Shown: positions 16,417 through 54,617 of the stretch, one piece after another | Layout of the letters: every line of letters starts with the position of its first letter | How positions within the stretch are numbered: position 1 is the first letter of the stretch | Assembly (NCBI RefSeq): GCF_000485595.1 | Contig: NW_014577680.1 | Location: forward strand, 1 to 64,000 | Source of the DNA: Priapulus caudatus | Taxonomy: Eukaryota; Priapulida; Priapulimorpha; Priapulimorphida; Priapulidae | Direction of reading: 5' to 3' | DNA length: 64,000 nt | Position numbers and translations under genes: made by a program | The notes under the pieces: model-generated | Told to the model about the DNA's origin: nothing | What the model saw: only the letters and a program-made list of their open reading frames with translations | Database searches by the model: none

Positions 16417-16733
16417 ACGGATATAAAGCCACTACATATGCACAGATATACTGCCACTACACAGATACAAATATACTGCCACTACATAGGCACGGATATA
16501 CTGCCACTACATAGATACAAATATACTTCCACTACATAGACACAAATATACTGCCACTACATAGGCACAGATATAAAGCCACTACATAGGCACCGATATA
16601 CTGCCACTACATAGATACAAATATACTGCCACAACATAGGCACCGATATACTGCCACTACATAGACACAAATATACTGCCACTACATAGGCACGGATATA
16701 CTGCCACTACATAGACACAAATATACTGCCATT
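16417..16733 (+). repeat. 25-bp minisatellite
   Basis: About 12-13 tandem copies of a 25-bp unit with consensus near ACTACATAGRCACRGATAT followed by ACTGCC. Units vary mainly at TAGGCACGG versus TAGATACAA and at ATACTG versus ATAAAG, and variants partly alternate, suggesting a 50-bp higher-order unit. No coding role is apparent. Confidence 0.85.
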
Positions 16734-23310: not shown

Positions 23311-23318
23311 TCTTGCGT

Positions 23319-23566
23319 CGTCGTGAACGTATTCCGCTGTTCCTCGCTTCGCCGTGAACGTAGGCTGCTGTTTCTCGTTTCGTCGTGATCGTATTCTGCT
23401 GTTCCTCGCTTCGTCGTGAACGTATTCCGCTATTCCTCGCGTCGTCGTGAACGTATTCCGCTGTTCCTTGCTTCGTCGTGAACATATTCCGCTGTTTCTT
23501 GCTTTGTCGTGAACGTATTCCGCTGTTCCTCGCTCCATCATGATCATATTCTTCTGTTCTTCGCGT
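23319..23566 (-). repeat. 31-bp tandem repeat, 8 units
   Basis: Eight tandem units of 31 bp with plus-strand consensus CGTCGTGAACGTATTCCGCT followed by GTTCCTCGCTT. Because 31 is not a multiple of three, each unit is read in a different frame, so long open frames here are a by-product. It lies on the internal side of the PBS-bearing LTR described at 23869-24047 and may belong to that retroelement. Confidence 0.85.
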
Positions 23567-23848
23567 CGTCGATAGCCAGGTCGTACAAGATAAGTTCTGG
23601 CTTATATGCGCCTTAGCGGCAGCATCATTGTTCGTAGGCATTCCATACGCAATGCTCGTATGGCGAAAACGGCAACACTTCATTCCAACGTCACAATAGT
23701 CTACTAGTCATAGGTTTTTTGTCTTCCTTCTTCCTCTTCCTCTTCTTCATCGTTACAGGTGTCTTCACTCAGTGTTTCTCTCGATTTTCGTGCATTGTAT
23801 AGCTATAGTACCTTTAGTTCGCTGTTTGGCAAAGGAATACCCTGGTTC

Positions 23849-42802: not shown

Positions 42803-43093
42803 GTTTTAGTGCATCACATGACTATGCAATCTACTTTTCATGCGTATATACCTTTATACTCCCTAATTTGCCGGTGCATTCGATGTAACAAAACGTTCGA
42901 CACAAACACAACCGCCGTTCGAAATTACTCTTGCTTGGCGCCCAGACGCAGGAGATTCGTGACGTAAACACAATGCGTTATAATAACAATGCGTCGCGCA
43001 AGCGATAGTGCCTGCTCAGGCGGGCACTATCGCTTCATAGTGCCTGCTGCGTTATCCAATGAGATTGCAGCGATTTATCACGTCATGCACTAA
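42803..43093. mobile_element. Small TIR element ending the MULE ORF
   Basis: The left end TTAGTGCATCACATGAC...GCAATC and the right end (reverse complement) TTAGTGCATGACGTGA...GCTGCAATC match, giving inverted termini. It includes a second hairpin, AAGCGATAGTGCC / GGCACTATCGCTT (about 43001-43035). Its right terminus supplies the last codons and the TGA stop of the MULE transposase (NDISA-stop). Hence it interrupts a once longer frame. Confidence 0.65.
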
Positions 43094-45179
43094 TATCATT
43101 TAATAGCACGTCTTCTGAGCAAATCGGATTATCCATCTTCTGTGACAGTACTGGATCTGTAAGTGCTTTTTTGCCCAATGTCTGCAGCGCATCATTCACC
43201 GTATTACAAAAACTAATTCCTCTATTTGCAACTCTAATCGACCTTTTGCCACCATGCTGTTCTTTGGCTCTTTCTGGGAACACCACAAATGGTCTGTATG
43301 GATCAGGGACTTCTTGATCTGGGCCATGATCTTGGTCAGCGAGAGAATATTTTCGTTCAGGTATGGGACCTTCTATACGGCGATACCCCATATTGTGTGG
43401 GTAACGTCTAGCTAACTTTCCAGATACACGTTTTATTTTTAGAACGCTATCATGTAAAACTTGCAAAATAGACCCGCTTTTTGCACGTTCCATTTCTGGC
43501 AGAGATGATTCATGTGACATAACTTTTAATGAATCTATGATGTGCCATGTCTTGGTTGGGAATTGCAAAACGTTCCTCGCATAACCAGGGAAAGGTTTTG
43601 AACGGTATGATCCAGTAAATGTGGTCAGCAAGTCTTCAGGATTCTTGATATTTTCTCTCAAAGCCAGAATAGCATACAAATGTTTGCAAAACTTCGGCTG
43701 ACCCATAACAATGAAACTACTGCAAGTACAAATTCCATGCTCTATATTCACTACATGTACATTTCCTGTTATTTTTTCATGCAATTCTTCTGGCAGAAGT
43801 CCAATGACATAATCACGGTAAAATTGTGTTGCTGACGTGTCAAGGGAAGAAATAAATTTCTTACATTTTGAAACAACATCATAACTGTGGTCTAATCCAA
43901 CATTTTGTGAAGTACAAAAGATCTCGCTAGCTTTAGACAATGACTCTGTTGGAGGGAACCGTTCCTCAAGGTATCTAAGTGGATCTTCATTACTATCCGT
44001 TCCAGTAAAAAATTTATCGGGAAGCTCATCAGTTTTTTGTTTTGTTGCTGCACTTGCATCACTTCTAATTACAGCCCAACCACTCGTCTCATCGTAAGCA
44101 ACCACCAGCCCTTTTTGGATGACATTATGTAATGCTCTGACACATGCATTTGTTTCTTTGGTTTTGCGGTTAATATTTCTTTTTCGAAATTTCAAAGATT
44201 CACATGTTGCTGAATTCTGCCCTGTTTCAATTAGATCATCACCAATAATGCTGCTTAATAAGCGCAATACAAAGGAAGATATCAAACGATTCATCTGACC
44301 ACTGAAGTAGGTTTGATCTACATCCTTGAACTTTCTTTCAGTAACATTGTCAGTCAATAGAAGAGGATTTGTTTGCTCTGCTAAGTCAACTTGATATAAT
44401 CGCTCTGCAGTCATTGTTTCAGCCCAAGGCGGTGAAAACCAGTTAACACTTAAATAATTGACAAGACTGTTCTTTTTGTCCTCCTGTAAAATTTCAGATG
44501 GAATTGTATGCTGAATAAATTTGATGAAGTTATTTGCAACACATTTTCGTGATGCTTCATCCCAGCAACGCATTACGCATTTAAAACCAGTTTCCAAAGG
44601 TCTCATTAATAATCGCGTTGAAGCATCTTCATGCAAATGCCGTCGCAGTGCTTGTAAACCATGAAAGTTACAAAGAGTTGACCCCAAATTGTTGTCATTG
44701 GCTCCATTTCGCAGAGCATTGTCTTTATCATGCTGAATCAACGGTGATATCGGATCATCAAAAGCACATGGTCGTACACGAAAGAATCCATTCCCATCAT
44801 TATAAATAAATAGCTTACTTGGGTGTTCACAGCTCGAATTACTGCATGGCACATTGGATAGTAGTATTTGCAGAGTGGTAGCATGAACACTTTGCTCGTC
44901 TGAATTTGAAACAGATGCTGCTGCAACACGCCCTCTATTTGCAGCATCACAGAATGTCACGAAGGCAGTTTTGAACCGTACAGCATTAAAGTCATGCTTA
45001 ACATCAAACCCTAGAACATGTTTGCCATATTTTCTAACATATTGTAAGGACTGTTTCTTGGCAATGACAAAATGATAGTTCCTGCCCTCCAGTTGATTTC
45101 CACGTTGAAAGAGAAGAACTGATTCAAAGTTGGACTCGAGGAGTTTCTCTGTATCACGCCAATCAGACCCATTAATCAA
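43083..45179 (-). CDS. MULE transposase with SWIM zinc finger
   Basis: This 698-codon open frame carries the Mutator-like (MULE) DDE core. HVLGFDVKHDF holds the first Asp (about residue 59) and FIYNDGNGFF the second candidate (about 128). STLCNFHGLQALRRHL matches the [LC]C-x-FH block (His 173), and LLLTDNVTERKF holds the Glu (about 281). A SWIM finger follows: GICTCSSF...KFCKH (C484, C486, C498, H500). The N-terminus has no ATG in phase; upstream sequence continues in a neighbouring frame (45450-45172), implying one frameshift. The C-terminus is cut by a small element. Catalytic residues look intact, so loss of function is recent or the frame is expressed in part. Confidence 0.8.
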   Translation of the reverse strand: MINGSDWRDTEKLLESNFESVLLFQRGNQLEGRNYHFVIAKKQSLQYVRKYGKHVLGFDVKHDFNAVRFKTAFVTFCDAANRGRVAAASVSNSDEQSVHATTLQILLSNVPCSNSSCEHPSKLFIYNDGNGFFRVRPCAFDDPISPLIQHDKDNALRNGANDNNLGSTLCNFHGLQALRRHLHEDASTRLLMRPLETGFKCVMRCWDEASRKCVANNFIKFIQHTIPSEILQEDKKNSLVNYLSVNWFSPPWAETMTAERLYQVDLAEQTNPLLLTDNVTERKFKDVDQTYFSGQMNRLISSFVLRLLSSIIGDDLIETGQNSATCESLKFRKRNINRKTKETNACVRALHNVIQKGLVVAYDETSGWAVIRSDASAATKQKTDELPDKFFTGTDSNEDPLRYLEERFPPTESLSKASEIFCTSQNVGLDHSYDVVSKCKKFISSLDTSATQFYRDYVIGLLPEELHEKITGNVHVVNIEHGICTCSSFIVMGQPKFCKHLYAILALRENIKNPEDLLTTFTGSYRSKPFPGYARNVLQFPTKTWHIIDSLKVMSHESSLPEMERAKSGSILQVLHDSVLKIKRVSGKLARRYPHNMGYRRIEGPIPERKYSLADQDHGPDQEVPDPYRPFVVFPERAKEQHGGKRSIRVANRGISFCNTVNDALQTLGKKALTDPVLSQKMDNPICSEDVLLNDISA

Positions 45180-46704: not shown

Positions 46705-47236
46705 AACAGAGGCACATGTTTGACTTTCAAATCAATATTACCCAGCAACAGCCAGTTTAAAATAACCGACCTTAAAAAACTTAAATAGTTGCTTATACTT
46801 CTCAAGTAAGACAGTTCTGGGCAACACGAGGAACAAAGTAGTTCAAACTTTGTTCTATCCATAGCAGCCAGACAAGAACCAATAACAGTTGCAGGACCAC
46901 AAACTGAAGCACATGTCTGCAATGGATAAGACGATGAACAATTATGACTGCAATGGTGATGACCATTTACATCATTTCTCAGCGGATTATGACAATAAAC
47001 TAATGCAGGTCTTGTTACGTTTAACTAGTTTAAAACATTTTGAATGTTTTCAATTTCTGACATTAGACACTTCCAACAATTTGCATCAGCATATGTCAAC
47101 AGATTTTTCTCCGGTGAATATACAATAAATGAAAAGTGGTTACCATGATGGACCTCTACATTGCCATGACTTACTATGTTTAGAATATTAAGAAATGTTT
47201 CATTTTCATGATTACCAACATAGTCCTGCGGCATAG
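46698..47236 (-). pseudogene. ULP1-like protease, C-terminal half, copy 2
   Basis: The frame from 47236 reads VHHGNHFSFIVYSP (candidate catalytic His) and TYADANCW (Asp). The frame from 46922 reads LQTCASVCGPATVIGSCLAA, which supplies the oxyanion-hole Gln and the Cys-Gly of a C48/ULP1 peptidase. A frameshift separates the two near 47000. The N-terminal half lies 5.9 kb away at 53124-53929, because a TIR transposon is inserted between them. Confidence 0.65.
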
Positions 47237-47239
47237 CAG

Positions 47240-50200
47240 ACCAATTGTTCAAATTGTTCTAAAAGCACCAAAATTGGCACACATGTAGATTAATATATTC
47301 TAAACATTTTTGGATATGGAGGCATTCAAGATTAGCCCTGTGGAAGATATGGCGGCCATTGTTCAAAATGGCCGCCATTTACCATTAGCGTCATTACATA
47401 GACTTCATTATGTGTCGTTAGTATGGTGCTAGATGGGCCAAAATTCCTTTTTTTTACATCAGAATTAACATCAATAAGTGTTTAACATATATTTAGATGA
47501 ATCTTCTCAAAAATGGCCCCCAAACTGGCCGCCATTTTGTGGAAAAAGTGGACATTTGATGAAGATTCCAATACTCAATGACATAATACCTCTAATAACC
47601 AGTACATGATTTCAGGAACACACTTTAATTGCTCAAGTTGCTTTTTTATTTCAAATTGCTGGCAAAATTGCAATGGAATGGTAGTCAAAATAATACACAG
47701 AGTACGGGGAGTTTACAGTATGGTCAGATTGTAGTTATATAGTCGACCAAAAGCCCAGTCTCTAGGCACAGTACTTACAGTTATACATTTATGGATAGAT
47801 CTAATATAAATGAACAAATCTAAGTGGCTTCAAGAAGAGGACACAATAAACAGTTGCCAATACAATAACTTTCAGTATTGTGTAATCCTGCAGTACATAC
47901 ATGTAATACAATAACGTAGATTTTGCCACACTATGTTAATTATGATTCTGAACTTTTCAAATCTGGTCACCAGGATTATGAATGTCTACAGATCATAATG
48001 TTGGCTAGCAAGTTTTCTGTCCTAATCTACTGGCATTCGCCTTCACAGAAACACAGACCCGTGCATTGCAGTGAAGCCTTCTTGCACTTGCAGCGGTTTC
48101 TGCAGCCTTTCTTGCATCCGCAAGACACCAGCTCATAGCAGGTCTTGGATGCCTCAGGGAGTGTGGTCCAGAGTGGTGTGTAGGGCCCATCATCACTCCG
48201 ATGCCAGCCCCAGTCTGTTGGTGGAGGGAGCACGGGCTCTGGTACCAATGCCTGGCCCCAGACATGACCACCCTGAAGGGCAGATCTCTTCACATGCTGC
48301 TCCAGAGCAGCGTAAGTTGGCGGGATGTTCTGAACAGAGCTCTTCTTTGCAAAGAGCTTCTTTCTCGCCTTGTTGACGTCCTTGCATTTGCTTGTGCGGT
48401 CATACAGGAGTATTACAAACCTCTCGATGACATGCATTGTATCCTCTTGGATGCTTGTGGGTGCATTTGCCAGACTCAGCAGGGCATCAGTGAGTTCTGG
48501 CAGCGTGTTCCATGTTGCCCAGGCAGATTTCTTCCCATGTCCGACGAAGGCTGACACAGTATCACACCCTGTGATGGCATGAAACATTGGAAGAGCACAT
48601 GTCTTCTCTGGACCAAGGGAGGAAGCTATTTCATGGGCTGCAATGTAGCGGTAGTTCTTGCCTGTCCCAAAGGCTACCCAGAGTTCGTCTCCAGCTGGTA
48701 GTTTCTGGACTACCATCACTGCTAGGACCACGACGTCAGTGTCTACTGTTCGAACCTGTATCTGGTGGTGACCATGTTGTGCAGCATGTGCTACATGTAG
48801 CATCATGCGAGTGTCTGCCTCTTCTTGGTTGCATGGTGCGAGTGAGTTGACGTCCTCTTGCTGTGGAACACAGATCACCTGCTCCCCATCAGTGACCACC
48901 AGTTCCTTGCCTTCTTCTTGAAAGGACTCTGCAAGCATGGTGGAGAGGTAGCTGAAGAGCTCCACTTTGTTGATATCAACTCGCAGGAAACTTTGCCAAT
49001 TTCCTGGTATGACTGCCGAGTCGACAACACGCCGACGTACTCCCTTTCCACGCTGTTCTCTGGTTGATGCCTTCAGGGAATCTGCTCTGTAGCTGTCCCA
49101 CACAAGGTCAAGACGTGATACATGTTGGAGCTGTTGTACAACGTATGGGATGAACACTTGCTGTGCATATTCCTCGAACGTGTTGGCAGTACCCGGCTTC
49201 AACATCTGTACGATTACTGCTCCATCGAGGACAACAGCAGTGACAGTAGGCGCTTCAGACTGAGGCTCAGCATGGCCTTCAAGGCACACCAGCAAGTCAC
49301 TCTTGCTCCCTAGGTACAGTCTCCCTCCGTCAGATAAAGCTGGAGGGCATTGCTGATTTTCATGCCTGAAGAACTCTTCTAGATTCCCATCACGGGTCTG
49401 GCAGCTGATATATAATCGTGCGAAGAGCGCAACATCATTCTTCAGAGATTTGACCTGTTGTTTTCCTTTGGGTATTTTGGGTCCTCTCTTGGTCGCAAAC
49501 AGTGGTAGCTTGTTCCGGTGGATTGCCACCTCAATGGACTTGGTTCTGTCCACGATGCATTCCTTTGAGAATGCTTCAAACTGGTCTTGGCCAATCTGCT
49601 TGGCGTTACGGACTGTTTCTATGACTGCAGTGTCTGCGATCTCCTTTGTGTCGAGCACCAGCAAGTCCTGACTGTCCTCCTCGAAAGGGTTGCCCAGCTC
49701 TTCAAAGATGGCCACGAGTGAGCGCACATCTCTGGCAAAAGTGTTCTGCACACTTGGTGTCTCCTCGTGGTGACGTGTCTCCTCTTGGTCGTGTGGATGC
49801 AGATTGAAGTCTTCAAATGCCACAATCACTCTAGCAACCTCTGGTCCGGCAACCATCCAGCGCCTCAGTGCAGTTGGATTGTCTGTGAGGCCGATGGCTC
49901 CTCCATCACCCTTGACATACGCGTTGTTCTGCTCATGTCCTTGGTCAATAGGGATTGCTGAAAAGATCCTCTTGGTCTTCTGGACTGTGAAGTGTCCGTT
50001 GCTAAACTCTGTGAAGACGTCTGGATGTTTGTTTGCCAGTTCTGCCATGTCCCGCAGATGCACTGGTATCCAGCGGGCATAGTTCGTGTGGTCTAGTGCG
50101 AAGAACCACGGAACCAGTTCTGTCAGAGCATCCACGTACATGCTAAAATTGGCTTCTCTCAGAGATCGCACATAGATCAGAGTGGACAGCTCCAGTGCCA

Positions 50201-53110
50201 AGACTGTTGACCAGTACTGAAACTGCGGATAACTCTGTTCTCTCTGACTGCACCAGTCTTCGAAGCTTCCAGGGTGCGCATCATCTTCTGTATTGGTGGT
50301 GCTGTACTGGTCATAGGCACGCCGTTGGAGTATGTATAAGGCAGCCGCTGTGACTTGGTGTGCTCTTCTGGTGCGTGTGACGTGAGCTGCTCGAAGAAAT
50401 GAGTCTGCTGTTCCTGCAGTTGTGATCTCTGCTTGTACCAGTGCTTGGGTCCACCCACTTCCCTGCAACCAGTCACCCAGGGTCTTCAGTGCCGTCATCT
50501 CAATATGCAACCCCCCGAACATCACCACCAGTTGGTCTTCTCCATATGTGTCTGGCCACTTCCACTGGATCTGTTTTGCTAGAGTGAATAGTGGCTGGTC
50601 GCAAGTCAGAACTGGAGTTTGGCCTGGGTTGAGATGTTGAACTGCATTCCTGACTACATCAATAGAGTGTCTGATCATTGCCACAGTGTGAGCACTCTCC
50701 TGGAACAAGGGAAGCAGGGACGTTGGTGTGATGACTGGTTGCTTTGGATCTTGGTGCCTTGCATGGTATGCAGCCCATGATGTGTTTTCACAGGCCTCAA
50801 CATCATCTTTGAGAACACTTCTCGTGTTCTCCAGCCACATATACTCATCTTCTATGTGCTGCTCAAAGTTGTGGCGTCTAAGAGAGGTCACAGAAGTAGC
50901 TGGGATCGTTTGCCCTTTGACAGAGGAAGCAACAGGACGTACATCCGTGTAATATTCTGGTAGAGGCTCAACCGTCTTTGATCCAGTATCACGCCCAGTG
51001 AGAGCAATGCTACGATCCACTCCCTCATCTGCACACGTTGGGTGTTGCAAAAGCGAGATTCCTGTTCCATGGAATGAATTCTTGGCTGTGGTGGCACTTG
51101 GGTTGTGGTCAATGTTGTCCACAGCCGCAGTTGTGAACACATTGCTACGCAGGGTAGGCGGGCAGACCACTTGCTCTATGCGGTACAGCTGACACACGCT
51201 GTTTCCCATCTGGGCAGAAAGACGCAGGACTCTGTCATATGAGATGCTTAGGCCCAGAGAGAAGAGCTTGTCCACAAGTCCTCTCTTGCGTGTTTCAGCA
51301 TGCAGCATCAGCCCAACATAGGTTGGAAGAGGAGTTTCTTGAGACGTACTGTGTCTGACAGCTGGAGGCTCCTGTGTCTTGGTTGCTCCCTGCTTCCGAC
51401 TTTGCTTGACACTGTTGAACTTGAGAAGCTGCGCAATGGAAAGAGCTGCTTGTCTCGAAGAGGAATGGCTTTGGTTCTTGATGCTGGGGCCATCCAGCAC
51501 CATATTTACCATTGCAACTAGTACGTTTGGCACAGAGTCCTCCTGACAACCGCCCGGGAATGATCCACGGAATCGGTCAGTGTCTTCAAACATATATCGC
51601 CGAACTATCTGTGCAGCACGCGCAAGGTGAACTGCCTCAGTGTCACAGTCTTGCTCGCAGGCTTTGCCTAGCGCTTCACCAATGTCTTCATCAAACGCTA
51701 GTAGAACATCTCGGCCTTTGCTCTGGGATCTCAGGCCTGGTAACTGGGCTAACAGGCGCTCTTTCAGCCTTGTGCTATTAACTTTCTTGCACAAAGCAAC
51801 CCCGAGCTGTTCCATTCTTGTCGTGTATAGCTTTGCAAGATCTGCGAGTCTGAAGACTGGGGCGGTGCCCTCTTCTAGGTGGTTTTCCTCGATATACAGG
51901 ACCAGTTCAGCCAGTACGATTCTTGACATCACACCTTCATGGTCAGTTTTCTGCTCGGCTTCTACAGTGGTCTTTGCACGATAGTAAAGAGCCAACAAAC
52001 ACTTGGAATGGTACTTGGCCTCCAGAGCCACCATATCACCCATGCTGAGCCTGGCCATGAGTTCATTGTCCCCAACTTGCGCTGCACACTTCCGTACGCG
52101 TGTGTCCACCTGGAAGGTTGCTACTTCATGTAGGGTCTCTGTGCCAGACTTTCCACAGAAAAAGCAGGAGGTGCCGCTGGTAGTGGCTTCTGAAGAGTGT
52201 GTTCTGGCGCGCTTGCCTGGGACATTGTCAGTACTACCAAATGCTGAGCTGCTTGCGATGAGTCTCTTCTCTGCTCTTCGTAGCATTGTGTTATTGTATT
52301 GGAGCATACATGTTTTATGCCACTTGGCCTGGTGGGCAACCATTGTCGCCTCAACACCTTGTCCTTCATCTAGTCTCTGTAACTGAACAGTTCTTGGCAG
52401 TTTTCCTAGTTCATCAAACTTGACCAAGTTTGCAGCCATTGTCGTGTATCCACTCCCAGGGTCTCGGCGTTTAGACAGTACTGGGCACACAAGTGACTCT
52501 GTTGTCTCCTCTTGACATACAAGACACAGCTTCCAGTTTGTCTCAGGAGGTGTTGTGGGAGTACGTTGCTCAAAAGTATCGACCAGTTGGAACTTCTTTG
52601 CCATGGCTGCAGTCTGGAACAACGCGTCTCTGATGTCAGGTGGTGCTGCTGCTGCTGCTGTAATCCACCACCAGTTGAATGGTTATCAAAGCCTCACCTG
52701 CAAAGACACAAAACACCACCATGTTACCACAAGCTACTACTACAAGTACCATGACTATCAACACTATACTATTACTGCAGCCGCCGTCACTGCCACCACC
52801 GCTGCCGCTGCAAAGTAAAATTCATTTTTCTTGTAAAATGGTAGCCATTTTATTTGGTAAGCACACAAGTATGTGTAATTGTACACTACTTATCACCTCT
52901 AGCACACTTATCACCTCTAGCATCCACAAAAAGACAAATTATGGTACATATTCAATGACGCTAATGGTAAATAGCGGCCATTTTCAAAAAATGGCCGCCA
53001 AATGTGCTACGGGGAGAATCTTGAATGCCTCCATATCCAAAATTGTTCAGAATGTATTAATCTACATGTGTGCCAATTTTGGTGCTTTTAGAACAATTTG
53101 AACAATTGGT
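47240..53110 (-). mobile_element. 5.87-kb TIR transposon with intact ORF
   Basis: ACCAATTGTTCAAATTGTTC at 47240 and its reverse complement at 53110 start long terminal inverted repeats. Similarity runs inward for about 170 bp (to roughly 47415 and 52935), with a few dozen differences, and includes GGATATGGAGGCATTCAAGA and AAAATGGCCGCCATTT-type motifs. The element contains one long minus-strand ORF (48027-52604). It is inserted in the ULP1 region of the MULE gene, dividing its two halves. A target-site duplication is not obvious; GCGGCATAG occurs just outside both ends but in inverted orientation, so it may be part of the TIR. Confidence 0.8.
48027..52604 (-). CDS. Transposase with FEN1/XPG-like nuclease and CXC domains
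   Basis: An intact frame of 1525 codons starts at the ATG of MAKKFQL. Residue numbers here count six more codons upstream. The N-terminus has Cys/His pairs (LCLVC 33-36, WHKTC, CFFC 153-156, YHSKC). AVDNIDHNP lies at 500-508. A DDE-like core has TCDQPLF (D675), LDHTNYARW (D844) and PIDQGHEQNN (E897). From about 1125 the order VVLDGAV (D1133), LVWDSYRADSLK (D1176), APCNQEEADT (E1268, D1270), RTVDTDVVVL (D1294, D1296) and ITGCDTVSAFVGHGKKSA (D1354) reproduces the acidic residues and helix-two-turn-helix of FEN1/XPG nucleases. The tail has CXC cysteines (CGCKKGC, CKCKK, CFCEGEC). The family is common in marine invertebrates; the nuclease assignment is my inference. Confidence 0.75.
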   Translation of the reverse strand: MAKKFQLVDTFEQRTPTTPPETNWKLCLVCQEETTESLVCPVLSKRRDPGSGYTTMAANLVKFDELGKLPRTVQLQRLDEGQGVEATMVAHQAKWHKTCMLQYNNTMLRRAEKRLIASSSAFGSTDNVPGKRARTHSSEATTSGTSCFFCGKSGTETLHEVATFQVDTRVRKCAAQVGDNELMARLSMGDMVALEAKYHSKCLLALYYRAKTTVEAEQKTDHEGVMSRIVLAELVLYIEENHLEEGTAPVFRLADLAKLYTTRMEQLGVALCKKVNSTRLKERLLAQLPGLRSQSKGRDVLLAFDEDIGEALGKACEQDCDTEAVHLARAAQIVRRYMFEDTDRFRGSFPGGCQEDSVPNVLVAMVNMVLDGPSIKNQSHSSSRQAALSIAQLLKFNSVKQSRKQGATKTQEPPAVRHSTSQETPLPTYVGLMLHAETRKRGLVDKLFSLGLSISYDRVLRLSAQMGNSVCQLYRIEQVVCPPTLRSNVFTTAAVDNIDHNPSATTAKNSFHGTGISLLQHPTCADEGVDRSIALTGRDTGSKTVEPLPEYYTDVRPVASSVKGQTIPATSVTSLRRHNFEQHIEDEYMWLENTRSVLKDDVEACENTSWAAYHARHQDPKQPVITPTSLLPLFQESAHTVAMIRHSIDVVRNAVQHLNPGQTPVLTCDQPLFTLAKQIQWKWPDTYGEDQLVVMFGGLHIEMTALKTLGDWLQGSGWTQALVQAEITTAGTADSFLRAAHVTRTRRAHQVTAAALYILQRRAYDQYSTTNTEDDAHPGSFEDWCSQREQSYPQFQYWSTVLALELSTLIYVRSLREANFSMYVDALTELVPWFFALDHTNYARWIPVHLRDMAELANKHPDVFTEFSNGHFTVQKTKRIFSAIPIDQGHEQNNAYVKGDGGAIGLTDNPTALRRWMVAGPEVARVIVAFEDFNLHPHDQEETRHHEETPSVQNTFARDVRSLVAIFEELGNPFEEDSQDLLVLDTKEIADTAVIETVRNAKQIGQDQFEAFSKECIVDRTKSIEVAIHRNKLPLFATKRGPKIPKGKQQVKSLKNDVALFARLYISCQTRDGNLEEFFRHENQQCPPALSDGGRLYLGSKSDLLVCLEGHAEPQSEAPTVTAVVLDGAVIVQMLKPGTANTFEEYAQQVFIPYVVQQLQHVSRLDLVWDSYRADSLKASTREQRGKGVRRRVVDSAVIPGNWQSFLRVDINKVELFSYLSTMLAESFQEEGKELVVTDGEQVICVPQQEDVNSLAPCNQEEADTRMMLHVAHAAQHGHHQIQVRTVDTDVVVLAVMVVQKLPAGDELWVAFGTGKNYRYIAAHEIASSLGPEKTCALPMFHAITGCDTVSAFVGHGKKSAWATWNTLPELTDALLSLANAPTSIQEDTMHVIERFVILLYDRTSKCKDVNKARKKLFAKKSSVQNIPPTYAALEQHVKRSALQGGHVWGQALVPEPVLPPPTDWGWHRSDDGPYTPLWTTLPEASKTCYELVSCGCKKGCRNRCKCKKASLQCTGLCFCEGECQ

Positions 53111-53123
53111 TTCGTATTTTTTA

Positions 53124-53929
53124 CTATGCCGCTGGGCTAACATGCAACAAGAAAATCAAACTTTTACACTCTAAAAATGGATTGCAGCCGTAACGTTTTT
53201 TAAGCTTGTCTACAAAAGCAGTAGGGTCAAATGAAACCAACATTGGCTTAACATATGCATCAGAAACCTGCTTGTTCACTATTTTAGAAAATGCATAGAG
53301 TATAGTTGAATCAAACCACTGATCAAGTAACACAGTCGTAATCTCATCAACAGGAAGTTTAACATTATGGAACTCCACGCTGTCTCCCATGGATTTTGAA
53401 AACAGCAATTTCTTAAATTCCAGTAATAATTCTTGGTTTAGTCCCTTTTGGCTTTTCACACTGTGTTTTATTAAACAACTTATCATCAAACCATATTCTA
53501 AACTTAGTTATCTTTGATTTAACTTCCTTAGCTTTATGGAGCTCGAAAAATACATTTACTTCAGTCTCATCAAAGATCCCATAATCCAAAATGACTTGGG
53601 TCTTTGCTGAATCCTCCCTCAATTTATGCTTTATTAAATTCAGCTGTGCGATATCTGGCATAAATGAAGAATTCTCTGCAGAATCACACGTTTGTGTCTC
53701 TGCTACCAAACACACTTGCATAGATTTTCTGGTTTGAGGTAGTTGCAAGTGCTCATAATCACCCAGGGGCAATGATGTCCTATAGTTGAGGGGATGACAC
53801 ACAGAATTCACATCATCTCCGATCTCCTCATCATCATCACTGCTTACTAGGATTGATGTCTCCTTCGCGGCCTCTTCTTTTTTTACTGACACAGCGCCTG
53901 CCCCACCAACGCATCTAACAATGCTGGAC
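53124..53929 (-). CDS. ULP1-like protease, N-terminal half, copy 2
   Basis: The exon follows an acceptor TTTTATAG and reads RSSIVRCVGGAGAVSV, then an acidic linker, VCLVAETQTCDSAENS and FRIWFDDKLFN. After a frameshift near 53460 it reads VLLDQWFDSTILYAFSKIV, the W-x-x-[DS]-x-x-[IL] groove motif of ULP1 peptidases, and CKSLIFLLHVSP, the strand before the catalytic His. The stop in front of the TIR transposon comes from the junction. Copy 1 shows the same segments at 22534-22144 and 20013-19840. Confidence 0.6.
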
Positions 53930-54009: not shown

Positions 54010-54617
54010 AAAGGGCAAGGGTTTAAGCCAAGGTCAATGCCAGAAGAACCCGATTACGAAAGGTCGGACCAGGGATGTGTGAGTGAGATGGATCACGCAC
54101 TCCATTGCTTTCTGGTTCCACTCACGGACAGATTGACGTTGTAATTAGTGGTTTATAGTGTCAGTCAGAAATGTCAATGAGAGTAGTCCACACACAATAG
54201 ACAGTATAATAATACTATGCTGTCTATTGTATGTGGACTACTTTCACTGAAACTATCAAAACGGAAAAATCAAGACGATTGATCAATGTGTGTCGAAAAT
54301 TTCCCATTAAGTCTGATTCTTGTTTACAGATGGATGGACAGATGCCAAGTGAATACAATAGCCTGCTGGGCTACCGCTACGTCCCAAATGGGCTAAAAAA
54401 ATGTTTGTGAAAATTACATGTATTAACAATAAACTGCTGATATGAGCTGTCCTAATTGGGACCAGCACTTTCTGTCTGACTTGGGCAATAATCTGACGTA
54501 GACAAGGCAATTCGATAAAGATGCGACTACAATTGGACAAAAATTTCTGTCTGACTTAAGTTATTATCTGGCTTAAGAGGATCCGACTTAGCAGGAGTCT
54601 ACTGTAAGAATGTTTAC
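54010..54617. other. Intronic or spacer sequence with small palindrome
   Basis: A roughly 27-bp palindrome, AGTAGTCCACACACAATAGACAG with its complement (about 54182-54240, short AT spacer), forms a possible hairpin. Otherwise I see no gene. Confidence 0.45.

Follow-up and report, generated by a model that had tools for sequence, protein, structure and literature searches.

A probable AcademX-like transposon of Priapulus caudatus with a predicted FEN/XPG-family nuclease domain in its transposase

The window analysed here comprises 64,000 nt of Priapulus caudatus DNA (assembly GCF_000485595.1, contig NW_014577680.1, positions 1–64,000). It contains a 5919 bp transposon, the gene of which encodes a predicted DDE transposase core and, in the same chain, a nuclease domain predicted to have the FEN/XPG fold. 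The element is very probably AcademX-like and a carrier of a FEN/XPG-family nuclease; AcademX was matched by published description and not by sequence. The gene is a well-preserved representative of an already known transposon type, and the fusion itself is not new. The minus-strand frame is open from 52622 to 48027 (1531 codons from TTG, 1525 from the ATG at 52604), in agreement with the original prediction of one intact 1525-codon open reading frame (ORF); protein residue numbers are counted from TTG. A protein cluster listed at 1525 residues is 100% identical across the searched region (residues 1030–1480). The features of the gene are as follows.

48027..52604, minus strand: transposase–nuclease gene, 1525 residues from ATG (open reading frame)
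48219..49307, minus strand: predicted FEN/XPG-family 5′ nuclease domain, residues 1106–1468 (structure prediction and comparison)
48561..49226, minus strand: seven candidate metal ligands, D1133, D1176, E1268, D1270, D1294, D1296 and D1354 (conservation)
49815..51467, minus strand: predicted DDE (RNase H-like) transposase domain, residues 386–936, with candidate catalytic residues D502 or D505, D675 and E897
52308..52526, minus strand: N-terminal zinc-finger-like module 1, C33, C36, H102 and C105 (conservation; putative zinc binding)
51999..52166, minus strand: N-terminal zinc-finger-like module 2, C153, C156, H205 and C208 (49/49 rows each; putative zinc binding)
48033..48122, minus strand: cysteine-rich, CXC-like tail with nine Cys between residues 1501 and 1530 (sequence and conservation)

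Structure comparison matched the model of the nuclease domain to the DNA-repair enzymes FEN1, EXO1 and XPG and to GEN1 over about 250–260 residues, with 12–15% identity in the resulting alignments. The predicted fold bears out the FEN/XPG-type assignment made in the original prediction, and the five motifs quoted there are all present (residues 1130–1136, 1173–1184, 1262–1271, 1291–1300 and 1350–1367). Sequence searches of Pfam and the PDB gave no nuclease match. No Pfam domain is listed for any of the 120 proteins shown among the 1141 found, and 0 of 18 alignment members (the window domain and 17 relatives) matched Pfam models of XPG, FEN or PIN domains at E values up to 1. The comparison thus provides a confident structural reading for a transposon nuclease that is unrecognised by Pfam. 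No relative was found in the viral contigs searched, and the phages searched gave one chance-level match only (E = 1).

Conservation was counted in 119 rows, consisting of the query and 118 of the 120 listed homologues. Residues D1133, D1176, E1268, D1270, D1294 and D1354 are conserved in 119/119 rows each and D1296 in 118/119; all seven positions aligned originally with FEN1 D34, D86, E158, E160 (as Asp), D179, D181 and D233 are therefore filled and kept in homologues. The 363-residue domain has 41 acidic positions, nine of which are at least 99% conserved, and the seven ligand positions are all among those nine (hypergeometric p = 1.6e-6). A chance resemblance was rejected on the motifs, the structure comparison and the conservation of the acids. 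The secondary-structure positions of the seven acids in the model, taken with the fold match, are compatible with their convergence at one putative metal site. Shared with FEN1, EXO1, XPG and GEN1 are the seven acidic ligands, a conserved Lys/Arg after D1176 and a GHGKK turn after D1354, whereas the window nuclease differs from all four in being part of a transposase and in going undetected by Pfam. The arch-type basic residues K1184, R1188 and R1191 are at least 95% conserved, and model helix 804–811 spans K1184 and R1188; in FEN1, the basic residues of the helical arch are K93 and R100. The segment GCDTVSAFVGHGKKSA is a candidate helix–two/three-turn–helix with a putative K+ site, judged by its position between two model helices.

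One difference from FEN1 lies in the predicted metal site itself: at the position aligned with E160, the second Glu of the E158/E160 pair, all 119 rows have Asp, the window protein included. This substitution would fit a domain that has kept the FEN/XPG fold, lost nuclease activity and only binds branched DNA. Such a loss is highly improbable: the seven ligands persist in family members as little as about 46% identical, and 32 of the 41 acidic positions fall below 99% conservation, and the ligands therefore behave like catalytic residues.

The placement of the nuclease between a DDE-like core and a CXC tail, also claimed originally, is borne out for both parts by sequence, fold and conservation. 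The DDE domain gave fold matches to the P element, RAG1, Hermes and Transib transposases, with D502/D505, D675 and E897 conserved; by Foldseek alone the match was weak. Among solved structures, the core is predicted to be nearest to P element and RAG1. P element transposase shows 9% identity, its target duplication is 8 bp as opposed to 3 bp in the copies of the window element, and it is not known to contain a FEN-type nuclease. In N-terminal module 1, C33 is conserved in 45/49 rows, C36 in 44/49, and H102 and C105 in 49/49. Tesmin/TSO1-like CXC is the UniRef name of some relatives.

The claimed fusion of nuclease and transposase holds, and the gene encoding it sits within a single mobile element flanked by target-site duplications. 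Its extent and ends are given below.

47221..53139, minus strand: whole transposon, 5919 bp, with termini 5′-TAGTCCTGCGGCATAG and 5′-TAGCCCAGCGGCATAG (inverted repeats, termini and 3-bp duplication)
47218..47220, no strand: left target-site duplication ACA (flanking letters)
53140..53142, no strand: right target-site duplication ACA (flanking letters)
47221..47433, no strand: left terminal inverted repeat, imperfect, with weaker similarity extending further inward
52916..53139, no strand: right terminal inverted repeat

Aligned without gaps, the inverted repeats of the window element comprise 136 nt at 88% and 75 nt at 75% identity; BLAST gave 91% over 157 columns, and the gapped alignment reaches further. 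An exact 3-bp duplication lies beside the common TAG terminus in all six coding copies with both ends placed (ACA in the window copy, L001; CAA in L005; TTA in L008; AAA in L021; TTA in L025; TAG in L028), which shows a 3-bp stagger at insertion. With registers shifted by 1–3 bases, the only match common to all copies, L003 included, is a 2-base TA within the terminus. At other registers, the window copy L001 could be read with 5 bp (AACAT) and L008 with 4 bp; neither reading extends to a further copy, and AACAT was set aside for that reason. The termini were located by the common motif, and the register was first spotted by eye, partly in knowledge of the duplications; the six agreeing copies are thus not quite as independent as blind tests of each would be. 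A 418-bp non-coding stretch (L003:879–1296) has similar ends (TAGTCCAGTGGCTTA) in inverted orientation and no 3-bp duplication, and is MITE-like.

The original prediction took the fusion to be undescribed. This claim fails because a passage of PMC10045372 already reports AcademX, a nuclease-encoding lineage of Academ with 3–4 bp duplications, and the absence of any known precedent was accordingly rejected. Also reported is a helicase lineage, AcademH, with 9–10 bp duplications. The window element shares with AcademX a DDE transposase with an accessory nuclease, a duplication of 3 bp against the 3–4 bp reported, and a similar length; compared by description only, the two show no difference. Its 5919 bp also fit the mean of 5565 bp given for bivalve Academ elements in a passage of PMC10294476. 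A RecQ helicase in Academ is mentioned in part of PMC3627910, AcademH is treated as a source of fungal helicase domains in part of PMC10799480, and the Academ passages of PMC9783078, PMC9143410 and PMC5753468 contain nothing on an Academ nuclease. No structural description of the Academ nuclease or of a P-element-like core fold was found in the open-access papers searched, to which this statement is confined.

A DUF6589 search gave 47 matches in the P. caudatus genome and matches in 0 of 14 control genomes; none of the open-access papers searched names DUF6589. Twenty DUF6589 loci were read, not all of which are separate elements (L040 adjoins L048). The nuclease is present in three (L045, L046 and L047), a RecQ-like ORF in opposite orientation to DUF6589 in five (L030, L033, L035, L040 and L043), and neither enzyme within about 1.5 kb in 12; L029 has neither even across 9.9 kb (L049). 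None of the 20 has both, and the helicase is absent from all 31 nuclease loci in the DNA examined. DUF6589 looks like the core common to Academ elements, joined by either the nuclease or the helicase, in keeping with published accounts of AcademX and AcademH. AcademH may be alike in a DUF6589-type core, which some relatives of the window protein match and which stands beside a RecQ-like frame in the five loci, and differs in having a RecQ-type helicase in place of the nuclease and in its reported 9–10 bp duplications. Kapitonov and Jurka (2010) and Kojima (2020) are both reported to have classed the Academ nuclease as XPG-type.

In the locus L050, a RecQ-like helicase frame (L050:1434–2483, plus strand) accompanies a DUF6589 frame (L050:3315–4568, minus strand). 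The 350-codon helicase frame corresponds to the later part of a helicase and matches NCBIfam recQ_fam (4.9e-29, below the cut-off of the model), Pfam Helicase_C (3.6e-12) and the WRN and RECQ1 structures (E values of 5e-19 to 2.5e-18). Judged from these frames, L050 is probably what remains of an AcademH-type element in P. caudatus; inverted repeats with an 8–11 bp duplication were sought there and none were found.

Several points weigh against placing the element in Academ. The window protein itself has no DUF6589 match in Pfam, so that the link from DUF6589 runs through relatives; AcademX was compared by description; and none of the open-access papers searched has both Academ and XPG as whole words. 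These would suit a new superfamily outside Academ in which a transposase and a FEN-type nuclease were fused independently. We regard this as quite improbable, since the nuclease, the 3-bp duplication, the length of the element and the RecQ-bearing DUF6589 loci all fit Academ as described.

For the AcademX-like element, the following mechanism is proposed. One protein would bind the element ends, probably by its N-terminal zinc-finger-like modules and cysteine-rich tail, and its P-element/RAG1-like DDE domain would cut and join the DNA. Insertion occurs with the 3-bp stagger seen in the copies. The predicted FEN1/EXO1/XPG-family 5′ nuclease, with its conserved ligands, would act in the same chain: once strand transfer has left the non-transferred strand with an unpaired 5′ end, it would trim that end, leaving the host only to fill and seal. 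We put forward this 5′ end removal after insertion as the preferred, though tentative, assignment of the nuclease step. Integrating elements such as retroviruses otherwise use host FEN1-like activity for 5′ end removal.

Alternatively, the DDE domain might cut the 3′ strand only, leaving to the nuclease the second, 5′ cut by which the element is released from the donor site. In Tn7, TnsA makes the 5′ cut and TnsB the 3′ cut, an established precedent in which a DDE enzyme is likewise paired with a second nuclease; the likeness is one of working and not of membership. TnsA differs in being a separate protein of restriction type (PMC3627910 calls it a type II restriction endonuclease). The full-length homologues in the alignment have nuclease and DDE parts in one protein, which would fit such a role, although these were found with a nuclease query and nuclease-less lineages would not show. 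Against this role, no nuclease was found in any of the five loci that have a RecQ-like helicase. In P element, RAG1 and Hermes, the nearest DDE folds, the DDE site suffices for both cuts, and intact duplex is a poorer substrate for FEN-family enzymes than ends, flaps and junctions. We consider a second-cut role unlikely, if still a serious candidate; because a helicase replaces the nuclease in related loci, a role in clearing ends, which either enzyme could fill, is tentatively favoured over an essential role in cutting. A role in opening hairpins or resecting donor-site ends, aiding donor repair, is less probable again.

By extension, Academ elements might use either a FEN-type nuclease or a RecQ-type helicase to clear the 5′ strand from the transposon ends following DDE chemistry of the P-element kind, and the enzyme used would fix the length of the duplication (3 bp for the nuclease versus 9–10 bp for the helicase). 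In that case AcademX would be a transposase of eukaryotes that has a flap endonuclease of its own and can do without FEN1 from the host. This generalization is speculative and on balance doubtful. Two questions become testable: for what purpose a cut-and-paste transposon requires a flap-type nuclease, and whether a helicase could replace that enzyme.

The P. caudatus genome (385 Mb) contains at least 46 matching stretches, several of them from one copy; the number is a lower bound, as 31 of 1197 candidates were scored. Twenty-eight loci covering most matches were read (eight from the first search and 20 from the second), with contigs C9 and C96 left out. The other genome matches listed, themselves a lower bound, are at most 74% identical, and the sole other nearly full-length one is 46% identical and has a stop. 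Database protein relatives reach 96–99% identity over most of the searched part, and the window element may therefore represent a recent or horizontally acquired lineage.

Two copies, L016:2299–5364 and L025:2217–5343, are 93–96% identical over long aligned stretches and retain only residues 946–1530, i.e. nuclease and tail without the DDE core, with stops in both frames. L016 is bounded by an inverted repeat and L025 by termini, and they look like internal-deletion derivatives that multiplied. Proteins P0124–P0126 are frames of 641–642 residues; in P0124, residues 1–211 are joined to 1146–1531 by an in-frame deletion cutting into the nuclease domain. In the gene model P0018 (Nymphon striatum, named tryptophan 5-hydroxylase 2), an Academ-type nuclease region is joined to a biopterin-dependent hydroxylase domain, which may reflect either faulty annotation or the capture of a transposon exon.

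Elsewhere in the 64-kb window, tRNA and Rfam scans were empty. A 698-codon minus-strand frame at 43083–45179, for which a SWIM zinc finger was the sole and weak match (E = 0.1), is possibly another transposon remnant. A 25-bp unit is repeated in tandem about 12.5 times at 16420–16731 and a 31-bp unit 8.2 times at 23318–23571, and a long hairpin lies at 54174–54250 (38-nt arms, 87% complementary, separated by 1 nt).
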